A DNA stretch of 64,000 nt, from positions 744,001 through 808,000 of the forward strand of contig NZ_VANU01000001.1 of NCBI RefSeq assembly GCF_005771535.1, in the 5' to 3' direction. The position numbers were made by a program, and so were the translations under genes. Below the pieces are notes generated by a model. It saw only the letters and a program-made list of their open reading frames with translations. It had not been told where the DNA came from and did no database searches. Shown piece after piece: positions 7,470 to 20,039 of the stretch; within the stretch, counting starts at the first letter, position 1, and the number at the start of each line of letters is the position of its first letter. The stretch comes from Arcobacter arenosus. Lineage in GTDB: Bacteria > Campylobacterota > Campylobacteria > Campylobacterales > Arcobacteraceae.

Positions 7470-8630
7470 TTAAAAATCTCCCTTATACCCAGCAAGTCTC
7501 ATTAAAGTTTTACTAACGGGTGATATTAATTTATCATTAAAATCATAATGAACATTATGACAAGCTTTTTGATGTTTTTCAACTCCATCATCACTTCCAA
7601 TAAGTGCAAAAGCTCCCGGAATGGTGTTTAAATAATAGCTAAAATCTTCACTTGCCATAATAGGCGTTGGAATATCACTTTCCCAATTTTCACCCAATTG
7701 ATTTTTTAACTCTTCTCTAACCATTGCTGCTTGAGTTTTGTGGTTTATTGTTGCTCCATACCTATCTCTTAATTCAACCTCAACATCAACATCATAAGTT
7801 TTAGCAGTTGCTTTTACAATCTCATCTATTTTATTAAAAACAAAACTTTTTAATTCATCAGTTGGAACTCTAATGCTTCCTTCAAGTTTTACAAAGTCTG
7901 GTATTGTAGTTAAATCACTTCTTCCATCAATTGAAGTTACAGAAACAACTGCACTATCTTGAGGTGAAACGTGTCTACTTATTATTTGTTGTAGATTTAA
8001 AGTCATAGCACTTGCTGCTAAAACTGGGTCACGACATAATTCAGGTTGTGATGAGTGTCCACCTTTTCCTTTTATATCTATATGAAAAGTTCCATTTCCA
8101 GCCATAACAGTACCATCAGGGCATACTGCTTGACCAAATTTAATAGCAGGCCAATTATGCCAACCAAAAATCATATCAACACCATCTAAACAACCCTCTT
8201 CTATCATTTTTTTAGCCCCATGACCACCCTCTTCGGCTGGTTGAAATAAAAGTGTTACTGGATTTTCAAGTAAGTGTTCATTTTGTTTCAACCAAATGGC
8301 AGCTGTCATTAATGTTGCTGTATGTCCATCATGCCCACAAGCGTGCATACACTGCTTTTTTGTTGACTTATATGGTACATCTGTTTTTTCCTCTAAAGCT
8401 AATGCATCAATATCACCTCGTATTGCAATATGAGGGCCTTTTTTATCTTGTGCTAAAAGTCCACAAGTTCCTGTATTTGCATAGGTTTTATAAGGGATAT
8501 TATACTCATCTAAAATATCTCTAATAGATTTTGCAGTATCGGTTTCTTCCCATTTCAACTCTGGATTTTTATGTAAATTATGTCTAAAATCTATTGCAAA
8601 GTTTACAACTTCTTCAAATTTTTTTAACAT
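7470..8630 (-). CDS. M20 family amidohydrolase, probable N-acetyl-diaminobutyrate deacetylase (DoeB2-like)
   Basis: A 386-aa metallo-aminoacylase/amidohydrolase. The metal-binding motifs are 'IRGDIDAL', 'HACGHDGHTATL', 'QPAEEGGHGA' and 'MASEDFSYYL'. By itself the family says only that an amide such as an N-acetyl amino acid is hydrolysed. As the last gene of a cluster carrying an ectoine hydrolase, it is the only candidate for removing the acetyl group from N-acetyl-2,4-diaminobutyrate, the job of the unrelated DoeB/EutE elsewhere. AAGGAG precedes the ATG at 8630. The role is context-based. Confidence 0.75.
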   Translation of the reverse strand: MLKKFEEVVNFAIDFRHNLHKNPELKWEETDTAKSIRDILDEYNIPYKTYANTGTCGLLAQDKKGPHIAIRGDIDALALEEKTDVPYKSTKKQCMHACGHDGHTATLMTAAIWLKQNEHLLENPVTLLFQPAEEGGHGAKKMIEEGCLDGVDMIFGWHNWPAIKFGQAVCPDGTVMAGNGTFHIDIKGKGGHSSQPELCRDPVLAASAMTLNLQQIISRHVSPQDSAVVSVTSIDGRSDLTTIPDFVKLEGSIRVPTDELKSFVFNKIDEIVKATAKTYDVDVEVELRDRYGATINHKTQAAMVREELKNQLGENWESDIPTPIMASEDFSYYLNTIPGAFALIGSDDGVEKHQKACHNVHYDFNDKLISPVSKTLMRLAGYKGDF

Positions 8631-8648: not shown

Positions 8649-9692
8649 TTATTCAAGTACATTGGTTAATTCATTTAAAGTATCTAAATGATTAAGCATT
8701 GAATCATCACAATTGATATAAATATCTTGTTTACCTATGATATAACTTTTACCTGAAATTTTGTTGTTAATAACATTGTAGTTTTTTTGTTTTTCAACAC
8801 TTTCAAAAACTCCAATAAATTTTGTATCTCTTAAGGAAATAGTTTCTAATTTATCTCCTTGTTTTATTTTGTTTTCATAATATAAATATGCAAGTCTAGC
8901 TGAAGTTCCTGTTCCTGTTGTACTTCTACAAATAACCCTAGGGTGTACATAAGTAGTTGAAGGGGAACTATAAAAACCTTCCTCTTTTTTTGTAAGGTCA
9001 CCCATAAAATGTAAAAAAGGAACAGGTCCTACATCACCTAAACTATAATGTTTAAAACTCTCTTTTTTTCTAATTGCTTCAATTATCATATATGCAGTTT
9101 TAGACAATTCTTCCTCTTCACTCTTATTTAATTTAAAACCAAATTGAGAAGCTTCAACTAAAACATAAAACCCACCACTATAAGCTATTGAATAAGTAAC
9201 TTCTCCTAAATTTGGTACCTCAATTATCTGTTTATAAGAGTGAATATAACTTGGTAACCCTTGACAAGTTACAGATTCAACAATACCATTTACAATATTT
9301 GCTTCAATATCAACTAAACCTGCTGGGGATTCAAGTTTAAAACTTATAATCCCCTCTTTTTTAGCTACTAAGCCTTTTTCAATAACTGCAGTTGCAGTAC
9401 ATAAAGTATTAGAACCTGAATAAATAGGATATCCCATAACCTCCATTATAATATATCCTGCAACTGCTTCTCTTTGGGATGATGGAACTATTAAGTCAAT
9501 TGACATTTCCGGAACGCCATAGGGTTCAAAAAGTAATGTTTTTCTTAAACCATCTCCATGTTTTTGTAAATATTCCATTTTTTCTCTTACTGTTTTTCCC
9601 GGAAGATTTTTTACTCCAGAAAAAACAATTCTACTTACATCTCCTCCAGCATGGGTATCAATTAAACCTATTTTATGAAATTTTGAATTCAT
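8649..9692 (-). CDS. Proline racemase superfamily protein with Ser/Thr at the catalytic positions
   Basis: A 347-aa member of the proline racemase / hydroxyproline epimerase / trans-3-hydroxyproline dehydratase superfamily: 'IDTHAGGD', 'YSGSNTLCTATA', 'GGFYVLVEA', 'CRSTTGTGTSAR'. True racemases have Cys in both catalytic loops (MCGHG and DRSPCGTGTSA). Here they read Ser92 and Thr259, and the usual His after the first is Ser94, so simple racemase activity is unlikely. Dehydratase branches carry substitutions at these sites. Its place in the ectoine operon suggests action on a hydroxylated intermediate such as 3-hydroxy-diaminobutyrate from hydroxyectoine; that is inference. It overlaps the upstream oxidoreductase by 4 bp. 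Confidence 0.75.
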   Translation of the reverse strand: MNSKFHKIGLIDTHAGGDVSRIVFSGVKNLPGKTVREKMEYLQKHGDGLRKTLLFEPYGVPEMSIDLIVPSSQREAVAGYIIMEVMGYPIYSGSNTLCTATAVIEKGLVAKKEGIISFKLESPAGLVDIEANIVNGIVESVTCQGLPSYIHSYKQIIEVPNLGEVTYSIAYSGGFYVLVEASQFGFKLNKSEEEELSKTAYMIIEAIRKKESFKHYSLGDVGPVPFLHFMGDLTKKEEGFYSSPSTTYVHPRVICRSTTGTGTSARLAYLYYENKIKQGDKLETISLRDTKFIGVFESVEKQKNYNVINNKISGKSYIIGKQDIYINCDDSMLNHLDTLNELTNVLE

Positions 9693-10849
9693 AAAGAATC
9701 CTTTAGAGCAAACTCTTTCCCATATTCATCCCATTTTGAATCAGGAACTACAACAACTTTTCCAAGATAGTTATTTGACCTATTTGCAAAATACTCTTCA
9801 CATTTATGAAGGTTGGAAAGCTTAAATGTTGCATGAAGCATAGGTTTTAATTTACCCTCTCTAATCCATTTCATTAATTGTTTTACTTCATTTCTAGTTC
9901 CATGGGAAACACCATGAATCTCTATTTGATATAGATATATTTTTGACCACATAATTTGTGTTATATTATCTCCACTTGCCCCTGCAATACTAAGTCTTGG
10001 ATAATCATCTTTGTTTTTCATATCTGTAATCATACAGTCTAAAAAAACATTTGTGTAATCTCCACCAACCATATCCATAACTGCATCAATGGCTTTCCCA
10101 TTTGTTGCTTCTAAAACTCTTTGGTTTAAACTATTTATATCAGCCCTATCAATTACTTTTTCGGCTCCTATTTTTAAAAGTTGAGCCTCTTTTTCTTTAC
10201 TACTTAAGGCATAAGGAATTGCTCCTAAGATTCTACACATTTGAATTAAAGCAGTTCCAACTCCACCACTTGCCCCAGAAACTAATACTAAATCCCCCTC
10301 TTTTACCCTAGAAGCATTTAACATTCTAAGTCCAGTTTGATATGAACACATACCTAAACTTGCAAGTTGGGCATCACTTATATCTAAATTTGACATATTA
10401 TAAAAATTTTCATCTGGAACTACTACATATTCAGCAAAACCTCCATTACATCCATGACCTATATAATCAGGGGTTAAATTTAGATTATCATTTTTTTCAG
10501 GGTCTAAATAGATATTAAAATCAATTAAACCTTTTTTTCCAATTCTACTAGTTGAAACTCCAAACCCAACCTCTACTATAGTTCCTACTATATCTGCACC
10601 TTGAATTCTAGGAAATGTAAAAGTATTATTCCCACTCATATCAAAGGAAGTAATTTCATCTTTATTTTTATCATCCACCCCATAAACACCAATTCTAGCT
10701 TTTCTATCGGTGTTGTTTTTGGCAGTTGCGTGAACCTCAACTAATACCTCGCCTTTTTTTGGTTTTGGTATTGCAACATCTTTGTACTCTATTTTATTAA
10801 TATCACCATGTCCTGTTAAAACCATAGCTTTCATTGTTTTATTTTTCAT
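9689..10849 (-). CDS. MDR-family NAD(P)H-dependent oxidoreductase (zinc-type alcohol dehydrogenase-like)
   Basis: About 386 aa with a GroES-like N-terminal domain (MVLTGHGDINKIEYKDV, KNNTDRKARIGVYG) and a Rossmann domain with the nucleotide motif 'VSGASGGVGTALIQMC'. The catalytic zinc Cys is not evident, so it resembles the quinone-reductase/crotonyl-CoA-reductase side of the family. In this operon it could reduce an enamine/imine or ketone arising from hydroxyectoine breakdown, replacing EutC; this is inference. ATG at 10849 follows TTGGAC. It is separated from the upstream usp gene by about 150 bp of palindromic DNA and overlaps the next gene (ATGA). Confidence 0.78.
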   Translation of the reverse strand: MKNKTMKAMVLTGHGDINKIEYKDVAIPKPKKGEVLVEVHATAKNNTDRKARIGVYGVDDKNKDEITSFDMSGNNTFTFPRIQGADIVGTIVEVGFGVSTSRIGKKGLIDFNIYLDPEKNDNLNLTPDYIGHGCNGGFAEYVVVPDENFYNMSNLDISDAQLASLGMCSYQTGLRMLNASRVKEGDLVLVSGASGGVGTALIQMCRILGAIPYALSSKEKEAQLLKIGAEKVIDRADINSLNQRVLEATNGKAIDAVMDMVGGDYTNVFLDCMITDMKNKDDYPRLSIAGASGDNITQIMWSKIYLYQIEIHGVSHGTRNEVKQLMKWIREGKLKPMLHATFKLSNLHKCEEYFANRSNNYLGKVVVVPDSKWDEYGKEFALKDSL

Positions 10850-11002
10850 TTTTTTGTCCAATTAAGAATTTATTTAAATTATTTATAAAATATTGCAGGA
10901 TTAAAAACTTTAATCCTTATAATATGGACGAATAAGCTACCTTTGAATAGACTCTATTAAAACAATAGATACTATTGATTTTTCTGATATCAAATAAAAT
11001 CA
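10850..11002 (-). promoter_or_regulatory. Palindrome-rich intergenic region inside the ectoine operon
   Basis: Three inverted repeats lie between the usp gene and the oxidoreductase gene: a 9-bp stem 10897-10905/10909-10917, AATAGA/TCTATT at 10946-10951/10953-10958, and CAATAG/CTATTG at 10963-10968/10972-10977. They could be a processing or termination site, or operators for a second promoter. No convincing -35/-10 pair is visible. Confidence 0.4.
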
Positions 11003-11481: not shown

Positions 11482-13242
11482 TTATTCTATAACTTGTGCA
11501 CCAAAACCAAATAGGTTTTGAAAATAGTCAATCACACTTAAATCCCTAAAGGCAACATCCCTTAAAAACAGTGCAATATCTGGGAAAAAGATTAAAGCAA
11601 CTGATACACTTAAAAGGATAATAATAAATGGTGGAGTGCCTTTAATTACTTCTAGATATGGTCTTTTAAATACAGCAATAGCTGTAAAAATATCACAACC
11701 AAAAGGTGGTGTTGCAGAACCAATTGCTACTTGTAAGGTGATAATTGTCCCCACTAAAACAGGGTCTAAGCCAACTGAATTTACAATTGGTGCAAAAATA
11801 GGAACTAAAACTAATATAACTACAATTGGATCAACAAACATACATCCAACAAAAAAAGCAATTGATATTACAAATAAAACCTCATATGGTCCCATTTCTG
11901 TAATCCCTATAGAACTTAATATTTCTTGAGGAATTTGAGCAAAAGATAAAACCCATGCAAATCCAGCTCCAGCTCCAACTAATATAAATACAACAGCAGT
12001 TACTAATCCAGTTGATTTAGCAGTTGCATATAAATCTTTTAATTTCATTGTTTTAAAAACAATACCTTCTAGAAAAATTGCATAAGCAACACTAACAGCA
12101 GCTGCTTCAGTTGGAGAAAAAATTCCCCCAAAGATACCACCAACAATAATTGCAGGGAAACCTAAAGGCCATAAAGCATTTAATAAAGCAGTACCCCTTT
12201 CTTTCCATGAGGCTTTTGGTTCAGTTGGGATATTATGTCTATAGGCATAAATAATACTATAGATTGAAAAAAGAAAAAGAATTAATAATCCAGGTCCAAT
12301 CCCAGCAATAAAAAGTTCAGGAATAGATGTTTTAGCAACAATCCCATAAATAATCATCCCAATACTTGGTGGAATTAAAAAAGCGATATCACTTGAGTTT
12401 ACAATTAATGCTAAAATAAATGATTCTTTATATCCACCTTTTTTAAGTCTTGGTCTTAAAGGGGATCCAATTGCAACAACAGTTGCTTGGGTAGAACCTG
12501 AAACCGCACCAAACATAGCACAAGCACCTGCCGTACTTACTGCAAGTCCACCCTTAATATGTCTTACAAAAGCCATTACCAAATCAATAAGCTTTTCAGC
12601 ACTTTTTCCTCTAGTCATAATATCAGCAGAAAGGATAAACATAGGAACAGCAATTAATGCAGCTGGCCTAATACCTCCCATCATCTGTTGAATAAGAAAC
12701 TCCATTTTTGAAAAATCACCATCAAAAAGTAAAAAAATACCTAAAGAGGTTCCTGCAATTAAAGGAATCATCATAGGAAAACCAAGTAATAATAAAATCA
12801 CCATTAAAGAAAAAATAGATGCAGATAGATGATTTTTTAAAAATTCAGTTATTTTAAAACTTGTATCTTTTATGGTACTTGTATCAATTAATGAAGCTAA
12901 AAGTGCACCCTCTTCTGAAATCATTTTCACTTCAATATTAAGCTTTCCATCACTCAAATCTTTTATATCAATATTTTCTACTTCCCAAAAACCATTTTTG
13001 TCGGACTCTGTACTAAAAGAAAGTTCTTTATTTTTTTTATCTTTTATTTTTAAATTTATAATTTGCCATTTATGGGAAGAAAAATCTTCTGATTCTGCTG
13101 AACCATAAATAAAAAGATTAACCTTATCCTCAATGGCAATTTCATCAAAATATAAAGTTACATTCTCTTTAGAAAAAGCGGATATGGAAAATCCCATTAA
13201 AATTGTTAAAATTATTAAAAACTTTTTTATAAACTTTTGCAT
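11482..13242 (-). CDS. TRAP transporter large permease (DctM/TeaC-like) with an extra N-terminal exported domain
   Basis: The C-terminal ~440 aa are a standard DctM permease: 'GFPMMIPLIAG', 'GKSAEKLIDLVMAFVRHIKGGLAVST', 'GSTQATVVAIG', 'IPPSIGMIIYG'. About 140 residues precede it, beginning with a signal peptide (cut after about 'FSISAFS') and continuing as a polar beta-rich domain ('WQIINLKIKDKKNKELSF', 'GFWEVENIDIKDLSDGK') before the first permease helix near residue 143. Ordinary DctM proteins are about 430 aa, so at 586 aa this is a fusion. The extra domain should face the periplasm. AAGGACACAAA precedes the ATG. It carries ectoines inward with the Q and P subunits, by context. Confidence 0.85.
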   Translation of the reverse strand: MQKFIKKFLIILTILMGFSISAFSKENVTLYFDEIAIEDKVNLFIYGSAESEDFSSHKWQIINLKIKDKKNKELSFSTESDKNGFWEVENIDIKDLSDGKLNIEVKMISEEGALLASLIDTSTIKDTSFKITEFLKNHLSASIFSLMVILLLLGFPMMIPLIAGTSLGIFLLFDGDFSKMEFLIQQMMGGIRPAALIAVPMFILSADIMTRGKSAEKLIDLVMAFVRHIKGGLAVSTAGACAMFGAVSGSTQATVVAIGSPLRPRLKKGGYKESFILALIVNSSDIAFLIPPSIGMIIYGIVAKTSIPELFIAGIGPGLLILFLFSIYSIIYAYRHNIPTEPKASWKERGTALLNALWPLGFPAIIVGGIFGGIFSPTEAAAVSVAYAIFLEGIVFKTMKLKDLYATAKSTGLVTAVVFILVGAGAGFAWVLSFAQIPQEILSSIGITEMGPYEVLFVISIAFFVGCMFVDPIVVILVLVPIFAPIVNSVGLDPVLVGTIITLQVAIGSATPPFGCDIFTAIAVFKRPYLEVIKGTPPFIIILLSVSVALIFFPDIALFLRDVAFRDLSVIDYFQNLFGFGAQVIE

Positions 13243-13251
13243 TTTGTGTCC

Positions 13252-13821
13252 TTATACTTCCATATCATTATTACTATCGCTATAACCATCTCTTACATTT
13301 GTTGAAAGAAATACATCATCTTCTCTTATATTCTTAACAACTGTAAAAAAGTATTGAAGTCCAGTAACGGTAAATCCAATTGGTACCCACAAATATACAT
13401 AAAATACAGGGATTCCAATAGCGGGTAAAATTCTTCCACTTTCATATACTTCAACAATATACCCATATGAATATTTTGCTAATATAAACATAAAAATTGA
13501 AGTGATTAAAGAGATAAATATCATAAAGACTTTTCTAATTTTTGTAGGGAGAGCATCATATATTGCAGACATTCTAATATGTCTTCCATTTCTAGCGGCG
13601 TAACTTAAACCTGCAAAGGTAACTATTACAATAAAAATCATATTTAATTCATCGGTTATTGTTAATGCATCATTAAAAATAAACCTTGTAATAACTGAAA
13701 GTATAGTTATAATTGCCATTGCAATTACACCTAATGCAAGCATAACACCTTCAAATTTACTTAACATTTTGTCTATAAAATCTAAGGCTTTTAGTATTGG
13801 GTTTTTTGTACTAGTGTCCAT
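13252..13821 (-). CDS. TRAP transporter small permease (DctQ/TeaB-like)
   Basis: A 189-aa protein with four hydrophobic helices. The usual DctQ features are 'VITRFIFNDALTITDELNMIFIV', 'TFAGLSYAARNGRHIRM' and a C-terminal 'YLWVPIGFTVTGLQYF'. It bridges the binding protein and the large permease. It lies 9 bp before the large subunit gene and is separated from the binding-protein gene by a hairpin region. Confidence 0.88.
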   Translation of the reverse strand: MDTSTKNPILKALDFIDKMLSKFEGVMLALGVIAMAIITILSVITRFIFNDALTITDELNMIFIVIVTFAGLSYAARNGRHIRMSAIYDALPTKIRKVFMIFISLITSIFMFILAKYSYGYIVEVYESGRILPAIGIPVFYVYLWVPIGFTVTGLQYFFTVVKNIREDDVFLSTNVRDGYSDSNNDMEV

Positions 13822-13831
13822 AATCTTTCCT

Positions 13832-13892
13832 TTTACTATAGTAGGTTACAACACTTTGTAATCTACTATAGTAAATCCACATAAAGTGGATT
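13832..13892 (-). promoter_or_regulatory. Paired hairpins between dctP and dctQ
   Basis: A 13-bp perfect inverted repeat (13832-13844 with 13863-13875) and a second stem (AATCCAC 13874-13880 with GTGGATT 13886-13892, extendable through 13867-13898 with one bulge) share the same middle strand, so they exclude each other. Hairpins at this place usually stabilise the binding-protein message and lower expression of the membrane subunits. Confidence 0.55.
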
Positions 13893-13907
13893 ACTATAAT
13901 TTATGAA

Positions 13908-14915
13908 TTATTTAGCATTTTTCTCAGCTTGGTCTAAATCTTTCATCATTTGTGTCATTATCTTTTTATTTGAATCACTTTTTGAAGCAAATGATTCTTG
14001 TACCGCTTTTGCTTTTTCTTTAAATACCTTTCTTTCATCTTCAGTTAAAGTTACAATTTTATAATTAGGATTTGTTCTTACAATTCTTCCTAATCCATAA
14101 GCATCAAGTTTTTGAGCCTCTTGTAAAATTGTTTTATGGGCAAATTCAGCAGCTTCTTGAACTAATTTTTTATCTCTTTTTGATAATCCATCATAGAACT
14201 TTTTATTTGCACTAACTGATGCGTTAAAGTGTCCATGACCAGTGTATGTTAAAACTTTTGTTAAATCATCTAAACCATAAGCTTCAATCCATACTGTTGG
14301 ATTTTCTTGTCCATCAACCATTCCTGTTTTAAGTGCACCAACTAAATCACCCCATGACATAGGTTGAGGAGATGCTCCAAAAGCTTTATATGTTTCAACT
14401 AAAATAGGTGAACCTGGCATAACTCTCATCTTTTTACCCTTTAAATCTTCAGGGGAATGAAACTCTTCAAATGTTGTAACAGCCATCTCTCCTTCAGGGA
14501 AAATAGATAATAGTTCTAATCCATGTTTATGGAAAATTGTTGGAAGCATCTCATTAACTACTTTAGAGTTTTTAAAGAAATAATCCAATTGTTTTGTATC
14601 TGTAGGCATTACATAAGGAACAGTAAAAATATCCATTTCAGGGATAGTTCCACCCATATATCCAGTTGATTGTCCTAAGAAATGAAGTAATCCAGCTCTT
14701 GTTTGTTCCATCATATCAGTTTCTTCACCTAAAGAACCAACCTTATATAACTCTATTTTATTTCTTGAATTATCTTCAATAAAACTCTTAAATGCAGTTG
14801 CATAAATACCTTGAGGGTCACTTGTACCTTCACCAAAAGCATATTTCCATGTTGCTGCACTTAAACTTGTAGCAGTAATTAAACCTGCTATTACCAATCC
14901 TTTAAATAATTTCAT
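13908..14915 (-). CDS. TRAP transporter substrate-binding protein, TeaA-like (ectoine/hydroxyectoine)
   Basis: A 335-aa DctP-type periplasmic binding protein with a signal peptide ending about 'SLSAA'. From memory of the family it aligns closely with ectoine-binding TeaA: 'GSLGEETDMMEQTRAGLLHFLGQS', 'FTVPYVMPTD', 'HGLELLSIFPEGEM', 'LVETYKAFGASPQPMSWGDL' and 'DGQENPTVWIEA' all have direct TeaA counterparts, including the segments that line the ligand pocket. With DoeA-type neighbours, ectoine or hydroxyectoine is the likely ligand. Confidence 0.88.
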   Translation of the reverse strand: MKLFKGLVIAGLITATSLSAATWKYAFGEGTSDPQGIYATAFKSFIEDNSRNKIELYKVGSLGEETDMMEQTRAGLLHFLGQSTGYMGGTIPEMDIFTVPYVMPTDTKQLDYFFKNSKVVNEMLPTIFHKHGLELLSIFPEGEMAVTTFEEFHSPEDLKGKKMRVMPGSPILVETYKAFGASPQPMSWGDLVGALKTGMVDGQENPTVWIEAYGLDDLTKVLTYTGHGHFNASVSANKKFYDGLSKRDKKLVQEAAEFAHKTILQEAQKLDAYGLGRIVRTNPNYKIVTLTEDERKVFKEKAKAVQESFASKSDSNKKIMTQMMKDLDQAEKNAK

Positions 14916-15009: not shown

Positions 15010-16197
15010 TTATTTTAGAAATAATTGTCTTGGGAAATTACAAAAAGTCTCTACCCCATCTTTGGTGATATGTATACTTTCCGTAATCTCAACTCCCCAA
15101 TCCTCTTGCCAAATCCCTGGCATAAAATGAAAGGTCATACCGGGTTCAAGAACTGTTAAATCTGTACTTCTTAAACTACAAGTTCTTTCACCCCAATCCG
15201 GTGGATAACTAACTCCAATTGGATATCCATACCTTGCATTGTTTCTATCGATACCATATTTATTCATAACTTTTTGGGCTGCATTTGCAATATCAGCAGT
15301 TGTATTTCCTGGTTTTGCCATTTCAAGCCCAGCATCAATTGTTTCTTGAAGTGCTTTTTCAGCATCTAAAAACTTTTGATTTGGTTTTCCCATATAAATT
15401 GTTCTTGACATAGGAGCATGGTATCTTTTATAACATCCAGATATCTCAAAAAAAGTTGCTTCATTTTTTTTAAAAGGGCTATCATCCCAAGTAATATGTG
15501 AAGCTGAAGCTTCAGCTCCTGATGGAAGTAAAGGTACTATTGAAGGGTAATCTCCTCCATAACCATCAACTCCAGCAATTGCTGTTTCATAAATTTGTGA
15601 GACAACATGGGATTTTGGAATACCAGGTCTTACAATATCAAGTACTCTTTGATGAATTTTTTCGGTAATTCTTCCAGCAATTTTCATATATTCAATCTCT
15701 TTTGCAGACTTCTTACCCCTAACCCAATTTACTAAATTATTTGCATTTACAAAGGTTGCATTTGGCAAGGTTGCAGTTAATCTAAAATGAGCTTCTGCTG
15801 AGTAATAATAATTATCTCTTTCAGTGGCAATTACACATTTTTCCCATTTATTTTTTCTAAAAACATTTTCTCCTATCCAAGTCATTGGATGTTCGTCTAG
15901 ATTTTGTACATACATTTCAGGGTAGCCAATCATATTCTCTTTACTCATGTAACATCTAAGTAATGCCGCATTTACATCCATAAGTCTTCCAAACCAAATA
16001 GGTTCTTCATGGTCTAAAGAGATAATTACACCTTGGTGAACATAAAAAGACCATCCATCATATCCTGTTAGCCAATTCATATTTCCAGGGTCTGTTGCAA
16101 CTAAGACGTCAATTCGTCTTTGTTGCATTATAGATTTAACTCTTTTAACCCTTTGTATATATTCCTTTTTAGTAAAGGCAAGTTTTGTTTTACTCAT
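15010..16197 (-). CDS. doeA: Ectoine hydrolase (M24 peptidase fold)
   Basis: A 395-aa protein of the M24/creatinase fold that opens the ectoine ring to N-acetyl-diaminobutyrate in DoeA/EutD pathways. The signature 'DPGNMNWLTGYDGWSFYVHQGV' near residue 40 and 'IGYPEMYVQNLDEHPM' near residue 95 are typical of DoeA rather than of general Xaa-Pro peptidases. The C-terminal catalytic half contains 'PSGAEASASHITWDDS' and 'EPGMTFHFMPGIW'. ATG 16197 follows TTGGAG with good spacing; an upstream TTG is disfavoured. Known DoeA hydrolyses both ectoine and, as EutD, hydroxyectoine. Confidence 0.88.
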   Translation of the reverse strand: MSKTKLAFTKKEYIQRVKRVKSIMQQRRIDVLVATDPGNMNWLTGYDGWSFYVHQGVIISLDHEEPIWFGRLMDVNAALLRCYMSKENMIGYPEMYVQNLDEHPMTWIGENVFRKNKWEKCVIATERDNYYYSAEAHFRLTATLPNATFVNANNLVNWVRGKKSAKEIEYMKIAGRITEKIHQRVLDIVRPGIPKSHVVSQIYETAIAGVDGYGGDYPSIVPLLPSGAEASASHITWDDSPFKKNEATFFEISGCYKRYHAPMSRTIYMGKPNQKFLDAEKALQETIDAGLEMAKPGNTTADIANAAQKVMNKYGIDRNNARYGYPIGVSYPPDWGERTCSLRSTDLTVLEPGMTFHFMPGIWQEDWGVEITESIHITKDGVETFCNFPRQLFLK

Positions 16198-16212
16198 ATT
16201 TTTCTCCAAAAC

Positions 16213-17613
16213 TTAACTTTTAACAGGACCAACCCAAACTTGTTGAGTATTTACAAACATTTTAATTCCATGTGGTCCTAACTCTTTTCCAAGTCCAGAT
16301 TTTTTAACTCCACCACTTGGAAGTCTTGGGTCTGATTTAACTATCCCATTTATTGAAACTTGTCCGGTAACAATTCTTGAAGCTAGTTTTTTACCTTTTT
16401 CGACATCTCCTGTCCAAACAGAACCACCTAAACCATAATCTGTTGCATTTGCTATTTTTATAGCTTCCTCTTCATCTTTTACTTTTATAATTGAAGCTAT
16501 TGGTCCAAATGTTTCTTGACAAGAAACAACCATACCTGGCTCTACATCAGCTAAAATAGTTACAGGAAAGAAAAATCCTTGCATATCATCTAATCTTTGA
16601 CCACCAAGAACTAATCTAGCTCCTGCTGCTACTGATTTGTCAACTTGTTCATGCATCTCCTCAACCAACTCACGTCTTGCTATTGGTCCAATTGTTGTTG
16701 ACTCATCTTTTGGGTCTCCAAGTTTTAATTTCTCAAATCTTTCTTTTAATAAATCTATAAATTTTTCATAAATTGGCTCTTCAACAATAATTCTTTTAGC
16801 AGCAATACAAGATTGTCCTGCATTTATATATCTTGAAAGAACAACTACATCTGCGGCTTTTTCTAAATCTTGGGTATCAGCTAAAATAATAGCTGGGTCA
16901 CTACCACCAAGTTCTAAAACTACAGGCTTGATTTCACTTCCAGCAATAGCTCCAACAGCAGCTCCTGCTTTTGAAGAACCTGTAAGTGAAACTCCCATCA
17001 CATATTCATGTCTAATTACATCTTCAAGTAGTGAGTGTCCTACCATCAGATTTTGAACAACATTTGTAGGGAATCCAACTTTAGTAAAAGCTTCAACAAT
17101 TCTAAGTGCACATAATGGAGTATGTGAGTCATGCTTCATAATACAAGTATTTCCAGACATAAGAGCTGGTGCTAAATATCTAAAAGCTAACCAAAATGGT
17201 GCATTCCAAGGTAACACTCCAAGCGTCACTCCAAGGGGTAGATATTGAACATAACTTTCTGTTGCATCTGATTCTATATATTCAGTTTTTAAATACTCTT
17301 CAGCAAAACTTGCATAGTGTTCAGCGGCCCATGCAGCTTTATTAACTTCACCCCTTGCTTCATTTATTGGTTTACCCATCTCTTCAGTCATAGGAAGTGC
17401 ATAATAATCAAGGTTGTCTTTCATCTCTTTTGCCACTGCATTCAAAAGTTTTGCTCTTTGTTCATAATTTGTATTAATCCATTCGTTTATATATGCTTCT
17501 TGTGAATTTTGAACAATCTGTCTTGCTTCTTCTTTTGTATGCATTGGTACTTCACATACAATCTCTTCATTGTATGGATTTATTGATTTAAAGTGTGTTG
17601 GACTGTATCCCAT
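16213..17613 (-). CDS. NAD(P)-dependent aldehyde dehydrogenase (probable semialdehyde dehydrogenase of ectoine catabolism)
   Basis: About 466 aa with all ALDH landmarks: 'GVLPWNAPFWLAFRYLAPAL', the Gly-rich 'LTGSSKAGAAVGAIAG', catalytic Glu in 'VLELGGSDPAI', catalytic Cys in 'NAGQSCIAAKR' and 'QETFGPIASI'. The family resembles succinate-semialdehyde dehydrogenases. In DoeABCD pathways the partner of the transaminase is aspartate-semialdehyde dehydrogenase (DoeC), which makes aspartate; here either product is possible. ATG 17613 has AAAGGAG 5 bases upstream, so the longer frame to 17676 is rejected. The 16-bp gap to doeA indicates one transcript. Confidence 0.85.
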   Translation of the reverse strand: MGYSPTHFKSINPYNEEIVCEVPMHTKEEARQIVQNSQEAYINEWINTNYEQRAKLLNAVAKEMKDNLDYYALPMTEEMGKPINEARGEVNKAAWAAEHYASFAEEYLKTEYIESDATESYVQYLPLGVTLGVLPWNAPFWLAFRYLAPALMSGNTCIMKHDSHTPLCALRIVEAFTKVGFPTNVVQNLMVGHSLLEDVIRHEYVMGVSLTGSSKAGAAVGAIAGSEIKPVVLELGGSDPAIILADTQDLEKAADVVVLSRYINAGQSCIAAKRIIVEEPIYEKFIDLLKERFEKLKLGDPKDESTTIGPIARRELVEEMHEQVDKSVAAGARLVLGGQRLDDMQGFFFPVTILADVEPGMVVSCQETFGPIASIIKVKDEEEAIKIANATDYGLGGSVWTGDVEKGKKLASRIVTGQVSINGIVKSDPRLPSGGVKKSGLGKELGPHGIKMFVNTQQVWVGPVKS

Positions 17614-17631
17614 AATTTCTCCTTTAAAAAT

Positions 17632-17650
17632 GTCCCATTTTTTCAGGGAC
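17632..17650 (-). promoter_or_regulatory. Small hairpin before the aldehyde dehydrogenase gene
   Basis: GTCCC (17632-17636) pairs with GGGAC (17646-17650) over a 9-nt loop. On the minus strand it is followed by ATTTTT and then the Shine-Dalgarno of the aldehyde dehydrogenase gene. It is too short to be a strong terminator; an RNA-processing or weak attenuating role is possible. The rest of the gap (17651-17753) holds only a 6-bp ATGAGA/TCTCAT hairpin. Confidence 0.3.
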
Positions 17651-17753
17651 CTATATTTTTTAACTTCTTTTACCAATGAGAATAAATCTCATCTAAAGAA
17701 GCCTTGTACTTGTACTCTCTTTGAGAAATTCTAAAGAAAGTAACGAGTTGCTT

Positions 17754-18998
17754 TTAACCTAATACAGCTTCAACTGAAGCTTTAAATCTTTTTAATCCCT
17801 CTTCCAAAACTTCATCTTCGATTGTTAAAGGTGGAATAAACTTAATAATCTCACCAGTTGAACAAGCTCCAATAATTAATCCATTTTCATAACATTTTCC
17901 AGTAATCTCTTTAACAGTAGCAGCGTTATCAAAATTAATTGCTAACATCATCCCCTTTTGTCTTATTTCAGTAACTTGAGAATATTTGTCATTCATCTCA
18001 TCTAATAAAGCTCTAATCACTTTACCTTTTCTAATAGTCTCTTTGTTAAACTCTTCATCTTTAAAATACTCTAAGGCAACACGACCTGCTACAAAAGAGA
18101 TACCTTGTCCTCTAAATGTACCTGTATGTTGTCCTGGTCCCCAAGCTTTATCAACTTCTGGTTTATTTATTAACATACCAATTGGTGTACCAAATCCACC
18201 TAAACCTTTTGCACAAATATTAATATCTGGGTCAACATCTAAATCATCAAAACTAAAATAACTTCCACATCTACCATTTCCACATTGAATACTGTCAAGT
18301 ATAAATAAAGCACCAGTATCACGTGCAAGTTTTTGCACTGCTTGTAACCATTCTTTTGTTGCTGGTCTAACTCCACCTTCTGCTTGTACTGGTTCAACTA
18401 TAAATCCAGCTGGTGGTAACATCCCTGAACCTGCATCAAACATTTGTTCTCTCATTCTATCTAGAGCTTCCATGTCATTAAATGTTCCTCTAATAACATT
18501 ATTTAAAGGAACTCCTGACGAGCTTCTAAAGGCATTATTTGCTGTACAAGCAAGGGAACCTAAAGTCATACCATGGAAACCTCTATGGAAAGCTACAATC
18601 TCTGTTCTTCCAGTTACTTTTCTAGCAAGTTTAAGTGCAGCTTCAACTGCATTTGTTCCTGTTGGTCCTGTAAATTGTAGTTTGTAATCACCCATTCCTC
18701 TTGGTTTTAAAACAGTTTCAACAAATGTTGAGATAAAATCTCTTTTTACATCTGTAAACATATCAAGGGAATGAACAACTCCATCTCTTTGTAAAAATTC
18801 AATTACTGCATCTTTCATTTTTGGATTATTGTGACCAAAGTTTAAAACTCCAGCTCCTGCAAAAAAGTCTACAAATTCTTTATCATTTTCATCAATCATA
18901 ATTGCATTTTTTGATGATTTAAAAACAGTTGGTACTGCTCTACAATAAGCTCTAATTTCTGATTCATTCTCTTCAAATACTGTTTTATCGTTTAACAT
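17754..18998 (-). CDS. doeD: Diaminobutyrate transaminase (EctB/DoeD-type, class III)
   Basis: A 414-aa PLP enzyme very like EctB: 'ESEIRAYCRAVPTVF', 'DFFAGAGVLNFGHNNP', 'FTGPTGTNAVEAALKLARKV', 'HGMTLGSLA', 'EPVQAEGGVRP', the Schiff-base Lys in 'ICAKGLGGFGTP', and 'GQHTGTFRGQ'. EctB makes diaminobutyrate from aspartate semialdehyde; DoeD runs the reverse to break it down. As ectA and ectC are absent and a hydrolase and uptake system follow, the catabolic role is favoured. AAGGAAG precedes the ATG. It is the first large gene of the operon, 41 bases after the leader terminator. Confidence 0.85.
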   Translation of the reverse strand: MLNDKTVFEENESEIRAYCRAVPTVFKSSKNAIMIDENDKEFVDFFAGAGVLNFGHNNPKMKDAVIEFLQRDGVVHSLDMFTDVKRDFISTFVETVLKPRGMGDYKLQFTGPTGTNAVEAALKLARKVTGRTEIVAFHRGFHGMTLGSLACTANNAFRSSSGVPLNNVIRGTFNDMEALDRMREQMFDAGSGMLPPAGFIVEPVQAEGGVRPATKEWLQAVQKLARDTGALFILDSIQCGNGRCGSYFSFDDLDVDPDINICAKGLGGFGTPIGMLINKPEVDKAWGPGQHTGTFRGQGISFVAGRVALEYFKDEEFNKETIRKGKVIRALLDEMNDKYSQVTEIRQKGMMLAINFDNAATVKEITGKCYENGLIIGACSTGEIIKFIPPLTIEDEVLEEGLKRFKASVEAVLG

Positions 18999-19039
18999 AA
19001 TTCTTCCTTATATAATTTTAGATTTTTTAAAAAATAAAA

Positions 19040-19131
19040 AGACCCTGCTAAGCTACATAAATAATATATTCTTAAATATATTATTTATGTAGCCTACAAT
19101 TTATTACACACTAAATAAATTGCGAGGGTCT
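19040..19131 (-). terminator. Three-way-junction terminator/attenuator in the ectoine operon leader
   Basis: Three perfect helices form a branched structure. P1 is a 7-bp stem (19125-19131 with 19040-19046), P3 a 9-bp stem (19114-19122 with 19097-19105) and P2 a 19-bp stem (19075-19093 with 19052-19070, 4-nt loop). On the minus-strand RNA the 3' side of P1 (AGGGTCT) runs straight into TTTTATTTTTT, the layout of an intrinsic terminator. The stop codon of the leader ORF (19130-19132) overlaps the first bases of P1. The transaminase start is 41 bases downstream. Confidence 0.65.
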
Positions 19132-19279
19132 ATCTGGCAGTTAGTATAAAGTTTTTTTCTTGGATTAATAAATTTTGGATCTCTTTAATAGGTCTAAAAG
19201 AGATTTTGTATGCTCTATAAAGTTTTTGCAAGGCTAAATAAATAAAATGTTTTAGTTTTGAGCAAGTAGTAAAAAACAT
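19130..19279 (-). CDS. 49-codon leader ORF of the ectoine operon
   Basis: ATG (19277-19279) follows a strong AAGGAGG site (19288-19294) with 8-base spacing. The frame runs 49 codons to TAG at 19130-19132. The product is basic and partly hydrophobic (begins MFFTTCSKLKHFIYLALQK, ends NFILTAR); I recognise no family. The near-consensus promoter 25-60 bases upstream and the terminator starting at its stop codon make translation plausible, either as a leader peptide that controls read-through or as a genuine small protein. No aspartate-rich or Lys-rich control run is obvious. Confidence 0.6.
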   Translation of the reverse strand: MFFTTCSKLKHFIYLALQKLYRAYKISFRPIKEIQNLLIQEKNFILTAR

Positions 19280-19290
19280 TTTAATAGCCT
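19231..19290 (-). promoter_or_regulatory. Start-site-sequestering hairpin of the leader ORF
   Basis: On the minus-strand RNA, AGGCTA (19285-19290), which includes the end of the Shine-Dalgarno, pairs with TAGCCT (19231-19236). AAAATGTTTT (19273-19282), which contains the start codon, pairs with AAAACATTTT (19244-19253). Both helices are perfect, 6 and 10 bp. Closed, the structure would hide the ribosome site of the leader ORF. Confidence 0.5.
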
Positions 19291-19311
19291 CCTTTGAAAT
19301 ATCTATTGAAA

Positions 19312-19340
19312 ATATTAACTACTTTTTTTTACATTGTCAA
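19312..19340 (-). promoter_or_regulatory. Strong sigma70 promoter of the ectoine operon
   Basis: TTGACA (19335-19340 on the minus strand) and TAATAT (19312-19317) are separated by exactly 17 bases. A real -35 is unusual here, where most promoters show only a -10. Transcription should start near 19305, giving a short untranslated leader before the 49-codon ORF. Confidence 0.75.
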
Positions 19341-19353
19341 GTATGTGATGTAC

Positions 19354-19365
19354 ATTTATTACACA
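19354..19365 (-). promoter_or_regulatory. 12-bp repeat upstream of the ectoine promoter, candidate operator
   Basis: TGTGTAATAAAT on the minus strand (19354-19365) lies just upstream of the -35 box. The same 12 bases recur at 19099-19110, inside the P3 hairpin of the leader terminator. An exact 12-mer repeat within 260 bp could be a regulator site, or could be chance in AT-rich DNA. Confidence 0.35.
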
Positions 19366-19403: not shown

Positions 19404-20039
19404 TTATTTTTTTTTAATCTCTAATCTTTGAGGGCGAACAGTGATTTCAGTTATAACCCCATCAAAGTTTAAAATATCTAAAACAGTATTTGCTATAGTT
19501 TGAGGTAACAAATGGGCATTCTTATTTTCACTAGGTTCAAAATTAAATTCATCAAAAAAGTTAGTTTTTGTAAGGTCAGGATTTATTGTAGTAACTTTTA
19601 CATCTGATTTTCTTAACTCTTCAAATAAAGTTAGAGAAAAATTCCTAAGTCCTGATTTTGTTGCTGTATAAAGTGCAGAGAATTTTGAATGTCTTGTTGC
19701 TTCAATTGAAGCAATATTTATTATATGACCTTTTGTTTTTTTAAGAGTTCTTAAAAGTAAACTTGAAAGGATAATTGGGGCAGTAAGGTTTATATTTATT
19801 AATTCTTGAATTTTTGGAATTGAGATCTCTTCATGGGGTTTGAATATCCCAAGACCAGCACAATTAACTAATAAATCAATATCATTCTCTTTTAATAGAT
19901 TTTTCACTTCTATTTCTAAAGCTTTTGTATCTTCAAGTCTAGATTTTAAAGTTAAAACCTTATAATTATTTTCTTCTAAAATTTCACAAATTGCTTTTCC
20001 AATTCCAGAAGAAAAACCAGTTACAATAGCCTTTTTCAT
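19404..20039 (-). CDS. Short-chain dehydrogenase/reductase
   Basis: A 211-aa classical SDR: the cofactor motif TGxxxGIG ('VTGFSSGIGKAICEIL'), 'NCAGLG', and the catalytic 'YTATKSGLRNF' (Tyr-x-x-x-Lys). Substrate unknown. It is translated just after the DedA gene (1-bp gap) and ends about 65 bp before the ectoine promoter, from which it is independent. Confidence 0.82.
   Translation of the reverse strand: MKKAIVTGFSSGIGKAICEILEENNYKVLTLKSRLEDTKALEIEVKNLLKENDIDLLVNCAGLGIFKPHEEISIPKIQELININLTAPIILSSLLLRTLKKTKGHIINIASIEATRHSKFSALYTATKSGLRNFSLTLFEELRKSDVKVTTINPDLTKTNFFDEFNFEPSENKNAHLLPQTIANTVLDILNFDGVITEITVRPQRLEIKKK

Follow-up and report, generated by a model that had tools for sequence, protein, structure and literature searches.

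The window, as we term the 64,000-nucleotide stretch of the Arcobacter arenosus genome analysed here, carries on its minus strand an operon that, judged by its gene content, serves the catabolism and uptake of ectoine. It opens with doeD, the diaminobutyrate transaminase gene and first enzyme gene of the series (17754-18998; Pfam Aminotran_3, and NCBIfam NF006733 above its cut-off), and continues with a doeC-like aldehyde dehydrogenase gene named by position and synteny (16213-17676; Pfam Aldedh) and with doeA, encoding ectoine hydrolase (15010-16209), whose match to TIGR02993 at 587.6 bits falls slightly below the cut-off of 613. The P, Q and M genes of a TRAP transporter follow (11482-14915; DctP, DctQ and DctM in Pfam), then a Usp gene assigned with Pfam and NCBIfam, genes for a zinc alcohol dehydrogenase and a proline-racemase-family protein (8649-10861) and, at the operon end, doeB2 for N2-acetyl-diaminobutyrate deacetylase (7470-8630; NF038260, 620 bits against a cut-off of 550). 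The order doeD-doeC-doeA-TRAP-Usp-ADH-racemase-doeB2 comprises a complete ectoine-catabolic set, and the Pfam and NCBIfam matches bear out a preliminary description of this DNA in which these genes were taken for an ectoine operon. Genes for the proline-racemase-family protein and the zinc alcohol dehydrogenase also lie inside the ectoine operon of several relatives (L103-L105). Within the sampled phylum doeA is confined to Arcobacteraceae, none having been found outside this family among 397 genomes of the phylum.

A minus-strand leader region occupies the interval from the end of an SDR gene at 19404 to the start of doeD at 18998. A 17-bp dyad, TGTGTA-N5-TGTACA (19349-19365), a probable regulator site, stands 8 bp before the -35 box of a promoter (19312-19340) in which TTGACA (19340-19335) and TAATAT (19317-19312) are spaced by 17 nt. 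A ribosome binding site recognized from the sequence, AAGGAGG (19288-19294), precedes an ORF of 49 amino acids, MFFTTCSKLKHFIYLALQKLYRAYKISFRPIKEIQNLLIQEKNFILTAR (19130-19279), which runs from an ATG at 19279 to a UAG stop codon at 19132-19130. This stop codon leads directly into a predicted three-way junction. Its closing stem, P1, consists of 7 bp between AGACCCU (19125-19131), which starts within the stop codon, and AGGGUCU (19040-19046), the A and G of the UAG being the first two P1 bases. Enclosed by P1 are the hairpins P2 (19096-19123; 19123-19114 paired with 19105-19096, 10 bp counting wobbles) and P3 (19050-19095; 19095-19075 paired with 19070-19050, 21 bp with wobbles); the perfect helices of 7, 9 and 19 bp first reported for this structure are reproduced if only uninterrupted Watson-Crick pairs are counted. 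The G+C-rich stem is followed directly by a U-run, UUUUUAUUUUUU (19029-19040), the first base of which is shared with the P1 pairing and which gives the tail after P1 7 U of 8, and then by the doeD ribosome binding site AAGGAAG (19003-19009), likewise read from the sequence.

The succession of promoter, 49-codon ORF with its ribosome site and branched structure thus stands in the sequence as originally described, coordinates included, as does the overlap of the stop codon with two bases at the start of P1. For the junction region a folding energy of -40.0 kcal/mol is predicted; dinucleotide-shuffled sequences give -17.5 +/- 2.9 (z -7.9; 0 of 200 shuffles reach the native value). A simple terminator scanner, which covers unbranched hairpins only, gave no report at the junction, and no Rfam match at the gathering threshold occurs in the window. 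A search of the genome itself for further copies returned chance-level matches only, besides the locus and the self-complement of P3.

Distribution of the leader among Arcobacteraceae

Twelve further Arcobacteraceae carry the ORF, its stop position and the junction in register before doeD, the same gene as in the window. This common register in 12 other species marks the combination of ORF and junction, on comparative grounds, as more than chance. When regions upstream of doeD orthologues were extracted, an ORF with a shared C-terminus, preceded by an SD-like sequence in 13/13, was found in 13 genomes from five genera, at a length of 49-51 codons in all except G071, where it has 34. In 104 Arcobacteraceae genomes, every convincing match to the leader peptide lay upstream of a doeD orthologue, and no convincing match came from outside the family among 399 genomes of the order. 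A covariance model returned exactly one match per genome in 12 genomes, always at the doeD leader position; having been built from eleven of those 12 sequences, it tests exclusiveness and is not an independent discovery. The model missed G071, in which inspection reveals the same arrangement. Relatives therefore keep both the ORF and the helices, on which the preliminary description had staked its proposal, together with the coupling of stop codon and P1 in all 13 orthologous leaders.

The tie to the head of the operon appears equally strict. All leader-bearing genomes examined have the order leader-doeD-doeC-doeA-...-doeB2, with or without transporter genes. Two genomes, G077 and G078 (L111 and L110), have the order doeB2-doeD-doeC-doeA, and in these the leader and junction are absent, which according to the doeD tree represents a loss within leader-bearing lineages; no replacement leader was seen before doeB2 in either. 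A lone doeD-like transaminase gene, 66-69% identical, is found without doeC, doeA or leader in genus g6 (L112-L114).

Conservation of the leader peptide

Codon comparisons indicate that the last 21 residues of the leader are under purifying selection. Mean pN across the final 22 codons is 0.178, against a pS of 0.580 (66 pairs from 12 species), with pN below pS in 64 of the pairs, whereas the N-terminal part is looser (pN 0.334, pS 0.551). Ten columns are invariant among the 12 species (M1, P30, K32, I34, Q35, N36, L38, Q40, I45 and A48 in window numbering), and the C-terminal consensus reads [RKH]P[IV]KxIQN[LI]L[IV]Q[ED]K..I..A[RSI]. This conserved stretch is the part that would occupy the exit tunnel of a ribosome positioned at the stop codon. 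The leader is, then, a short upstream ORF, predicted to be translated, with selection acting on its peptide, as expected of an arrest peptide. Such a peptide would not be expected to adopt a meaningful fold away from the ribosome tunnel. No Pfam or NCBIfam match was obtained for it. The 13 leaders have no conserved run of control codons, in accord with the initial remark that no run for a control amino acid is evident.

The end of the ORF is constrained in an unusual manner. The penultimate codon, for A48, is GCC in 12/12 leaders (the last two codons occupy 19133-19138 in the window), compared with 17 of 400 Ala codons, or about 4%, in the doeD genes. Inspection by eye found no base-pairing partner for this codon, and its constraint could possibly reflect a tRNA-specific effect or one on the mRNA path near the stop codon. 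The final residue is R in 8 of the 12 leaders, S in 2 and I in 2, and this variability suggests that it is less important than the Ala before it.

Conservation of the junction

The stop codon is UAG in all 13 leaders, and its G is in each the first base of P1 (GACCC...GGGUC); UAG-ACCC and GGGUC are themselves invariant in 13/13. Among long ORFs in the window, by comparison, TAA serves as the stop in 29, TAG in 6 and TGA in 6, and the conservation of UAG in the leaders is at least partly explained by its overlap with P1. The spacing from UAG to P1 is constant despite an enclosed sequence of 52 to 97 nt and a junction core that varies from 62 to 107 nt across species. Because P1 is invariant, covariation offers no support for it. 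P2 and P3, on the other hand, change in sequence and yet stay paired. With arms taken from the predicted fold of each sequence itself, native arms average -8.7 and -9.0 kcal/mol for P2 and P3, respectively, as opposed to -4.1 and -2.4 for arms exchanged between lineages, and 0 of 2000 arm-swap permutations reached the observed sum for the two helices. The enclosed sequence folded alone is more stable than its shuffles in 12/13 (z -2.7 to -7.7). A plain MAFFT alignment reveals changes on both sides of P2 and P3 pairs, with 88.9% paired cells against 32-43% in slid controls, counts of compensatory change and pairing that come from related species and are not independent events. RNAalifold did not find P3 on that alignment, since P3 is misaligned across species, and the arm-swap test was used instead.

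The tract following P1 is less uniform. In the window species its near-perfect U-run makes premature termination the simplest reading. In relatives it is a short pyrimidine stretch with 1-5 U of 8, reading AUUCC or ACUCC in G067, G068, G057 and G081, which is weak for intrinsic termination. On the doeD tree, the species with U-poor tracts are not gathered in a single clade. The original designation as an intrinsic terminator thus suits the window species well and is less apt for several of its relatives, so that termination is no more than a candidate for the output of the whole family. The output may differ between lineages or may be of another kind, such as RNA decay.

Promoter-level control

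Elements of the form TTGAC[AT] and TANNNT recur as -35 and -10 boxes in nearly all relatives, and in most species (the window and L043-L051) a dyad precedes the -35 box by 8-9 bp. It conforms to TGTAYA-N5-TRTACA with 0-1 mismatch in 8/13, in the same register. A DNA-binding regulator probably acts at the promoter as well, so that the leader need not be the sole control. The regulator EnuR (EutR/EhuR) controls the same pathway elsewhere, with alpha-ADABA and DABA as inducers and an operator consensus of ATTGT-N6-ACAAT (PMC8739950). EnuR is, unlike the leader, a DNA-binding MocR protein, and neither its operator nor its gene was recognized here: the promoter dyad does not fit the EnuR consensus, the best match to which upstream of the leaders has 2-3 mismatches of 10, no regulator gene lies inside the ectoine operon, and no MocR-sized GntR protein was found in the leader-bearing genomes G036 and G081. 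Elsewhere in the genome to which the window belongs lies a single GntR frame of MocR size, 519 amino acids long.

Discussion

Sequence comparison brings out a leader ORF with selection on its peptide, a structured junction, an invariant overlap of stop codon and P1, and a strict tie of the whole to the head of the ectoine operon. These features are, in our judgement, best explained by a metabolite-responsive arrest-peptide attenuator operating in the mode of TnaC and SpeFL, a reading that we consider probable. The arrest, its ligand, the output (termination or translation) and the transcript ends we infer along the following lines. Translation of the leader ORF would proceed alongside its transcription. 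If no signal derived from ectoine is present, the ribosome would terminate at UAG and depart, P1 would close the three-way junction, and either transcription would stop at the U-run, as in the window species, or translation of doeD would be held down, as possibly in some relatives. During ectoine degradation, an intermediate of the pathway, together with the nascent C-terminus in the exit tunnel, would prevent release at UAG. A ribosome halted in this way would cover the stop codon and some 9-10 nt beyond, including the whole 5' strand of P1, and with P1 blocked the operon would be expressed. By its established footprint, a ribosome with UAG in the A site covers the 5' strand of P1, and on positional evidence the leader stop is so placed that a ribosome stalled there would mask P1. 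Normal translation termination is fast, and the switch would therefore need an arrest. The best guess for the ligand is L-2,4-diaminobutyrate (DABA) or its N-acetyl form (ADABA). Diaminobutyrate differs from ornithine in having one methylene fewer; this likeness, its role as the substrate of DoeD and the induction of EnuR elsewhere make DABA or ADABA a reasonable candidate for the trigger. Weighing against the proposal is the closing stem, since intrinsic terminators do not usually have a stem of 5-7 bp that encloses 50-100 nt of junction. Because the stem includes the stop codon, single-base changes should allow the mechanism to be tested directly.

In its earliest form the idea was that a ribosome reaching the stop codon would cover the 5' strand of P1 and permit terminator read-through. 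The positional coupling on which this rested is conserved in 13/13, whereas read-through as a family-wide output is less certain, given the poor U-run of several relatives. A variant that overlaps with the arrest-peptide explanation, and could be driven by the same peptide, proposes that the doeD ribosome site is masked by the pyrimidines following P1 and freed when P1 opens. Pyrimidines do occupy positions 2-4 after GGGUC in 13/13; the AUUCC or ACUCC tracts of G067, G068, G057 and G081 are predicted to pair with GGAA or GGAG of the doeD SD at a probability of 0.85-0.98; a modelled block of P1 raises the exposure of that SD from 0.04 to 0.43 in L047 and from 0.03 to 0.75 in L051; and a comparable dual arrangement is known for Salmonella speF (PMC6386406). 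Against this, pairing between tract and SD is overall no better than in swapped pairs (1840 of 5000 permutations), blocking P1 clearly changes the predicted exposure in just those 2 of 13, and the window species has its near-perfect U-run, which together leave translational control in place of transcription attenuation somewhat unlikely. The swap test lends no support to a general anti-SD role for the tract, and no alternative partner for GGGUC upon blocking of P1 is common between species.

A further alternative dispenses with sensing altogether: any ribosome completing the leader would briefly open P1, so that the operon would follow translation capacity and the peptide would be incidental. 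The overlap of stop and P1 would by itself suffice for this, and a variable last residue agrees with it; strong selection on the C-terminal 21 residues, with its ten invariant columns, would however be superfluous for a mere road-block, and the rapidity of termination without arrest argues in the same direction, making simple coupling an unlikely account. The selection on the peptide bears likewise on the suggestion in the preliminary description that the junction itself binds a small molecule. Such a riboswitch, recognizing ectoine or a product directly, would accord with the conserved architecture and with the partial A/U conservation of the junction strands, but P2 and P3 vary freely in sequence, loops and length, the junction of G071 has almost no unpaired nucleotides, and Rfam offers no match. 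Because the conserved element is the C-terminus of the peptide and not P2 or P3, a nascent-peptide sensor within the ribosome is the better reading, and a binding junction seems very improbable. Scarcely credible, finally, is an independent small-protein gene, for instance one for a type I toxin or a peptide of the membrane, that stands beside doeD by accident. That the ORF has a promoter, a ribosome site and a terminator-like structure to itself would agree with this; yet in 13 genomes from five genera it lies directly before doeD whenever doeD heads an ectoine operon, and it is lost upon a change of gene order, is poorly conserved in its N-terminal half and has no match in Pfam or NCBIfam.

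More tentatively, the arrest-peptide explanation may be extended to a specific proposition, that the leader is the first nascent-peptide metabolite sensor of the Campylobacterota and of ectoine catabolism, in which the ribosome would sense DABA or ADABA and arrest at UAG, which arose independently of SpeFL, and whose output has drifted by clade between termination and masking of the ribosome site. A search of the openly accessible literature for ectoine in connection with leader peptides, attenuators, riboswitches or stalling disclosed no such leader, and a 2018 review and a 2026 paper on ectoine genes make no mention of Campylobacter, Arcobacter, leaders or attenuation. If correct, the proposal would explain the control of ectoine use, a common marine nutrient, in Arcobacteraceae without regulators of the EnuR type.

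Several known leader systems offer instructive parallels. The attenuators of trp, his and leu likewise place a translated leader before a terminator-like structure, but they switch at internal codons within a run of control codons, whereas here the peptide is conserved and the switch would lie at the stop codon. The macrolide leaders ErmBL and MsrDL resemble the proposed system in ligand-dependent stalling that alters downstream RNA structure; their ligand is a ribosome-bound antibiotic and their targets are resistance genes, in contrast to the catabolic genes considered here. Known metabolite-sensing leader peptides in bacteria are very few, TnaC and SpeFL being the worked examples in the publications consulted. 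The TnaC system works through masking of a Rho site. TnaC of the tna operon, like the present leader, precedes catabolic genes, and is induced by substrate through inhibition of a release factor at the leader stop, a property common to TnaC and SpeFL (PMC8429421); its peptide is different and RF2 is affected, while the UAG examined here directly overlaps a structured element.

SpeFL (orf34), the leader of speF in gammaproteobacteria, is in several respects the closer parallel, being also a leader ORF with a conserved C-terminus, placed ahead of the gene of an enzyme that acts on a diamino acid. In E. coli it is an ornithine-sensing arrest peptide that acts on RF1 (PMC8429421), arrest at its stop codon blocking that factor, and ornithine resembles diaminobutyrate. 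E. coli SpeFL ends in Ala(GCC)-Arg-UAG, as do 8/12 of the leaders described here, and its relatives keep an Ala near the end, with GCC or GCT as the codon; the Ala-Arg ending held in common may be due to chance, given the variation of the last residue among R, S and I. The HIRR..H sensor motif and F-rich effector region of SpeFL set it apart, HIRR being absent from the leader alignment, and a profile of the leader found no PDB chain, SpeFL included, although a SpeFL query itself finds 6tbv. Output differs as well, in that speF uses Rho and a helix at the ribosome binding site, whereas here the stop codon lies within a junction stem followed by a U-run, and SpeFL belongs to a different phylum and pathway. 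Were the proposal correct, an unrelated peptide in another phylum would sense a diamino acid that is not proteinogenic, or a derivative of it, and the two leaders would provide a natural comparison for the recognition of ornithine-like ligands in the ribosome tunnel.
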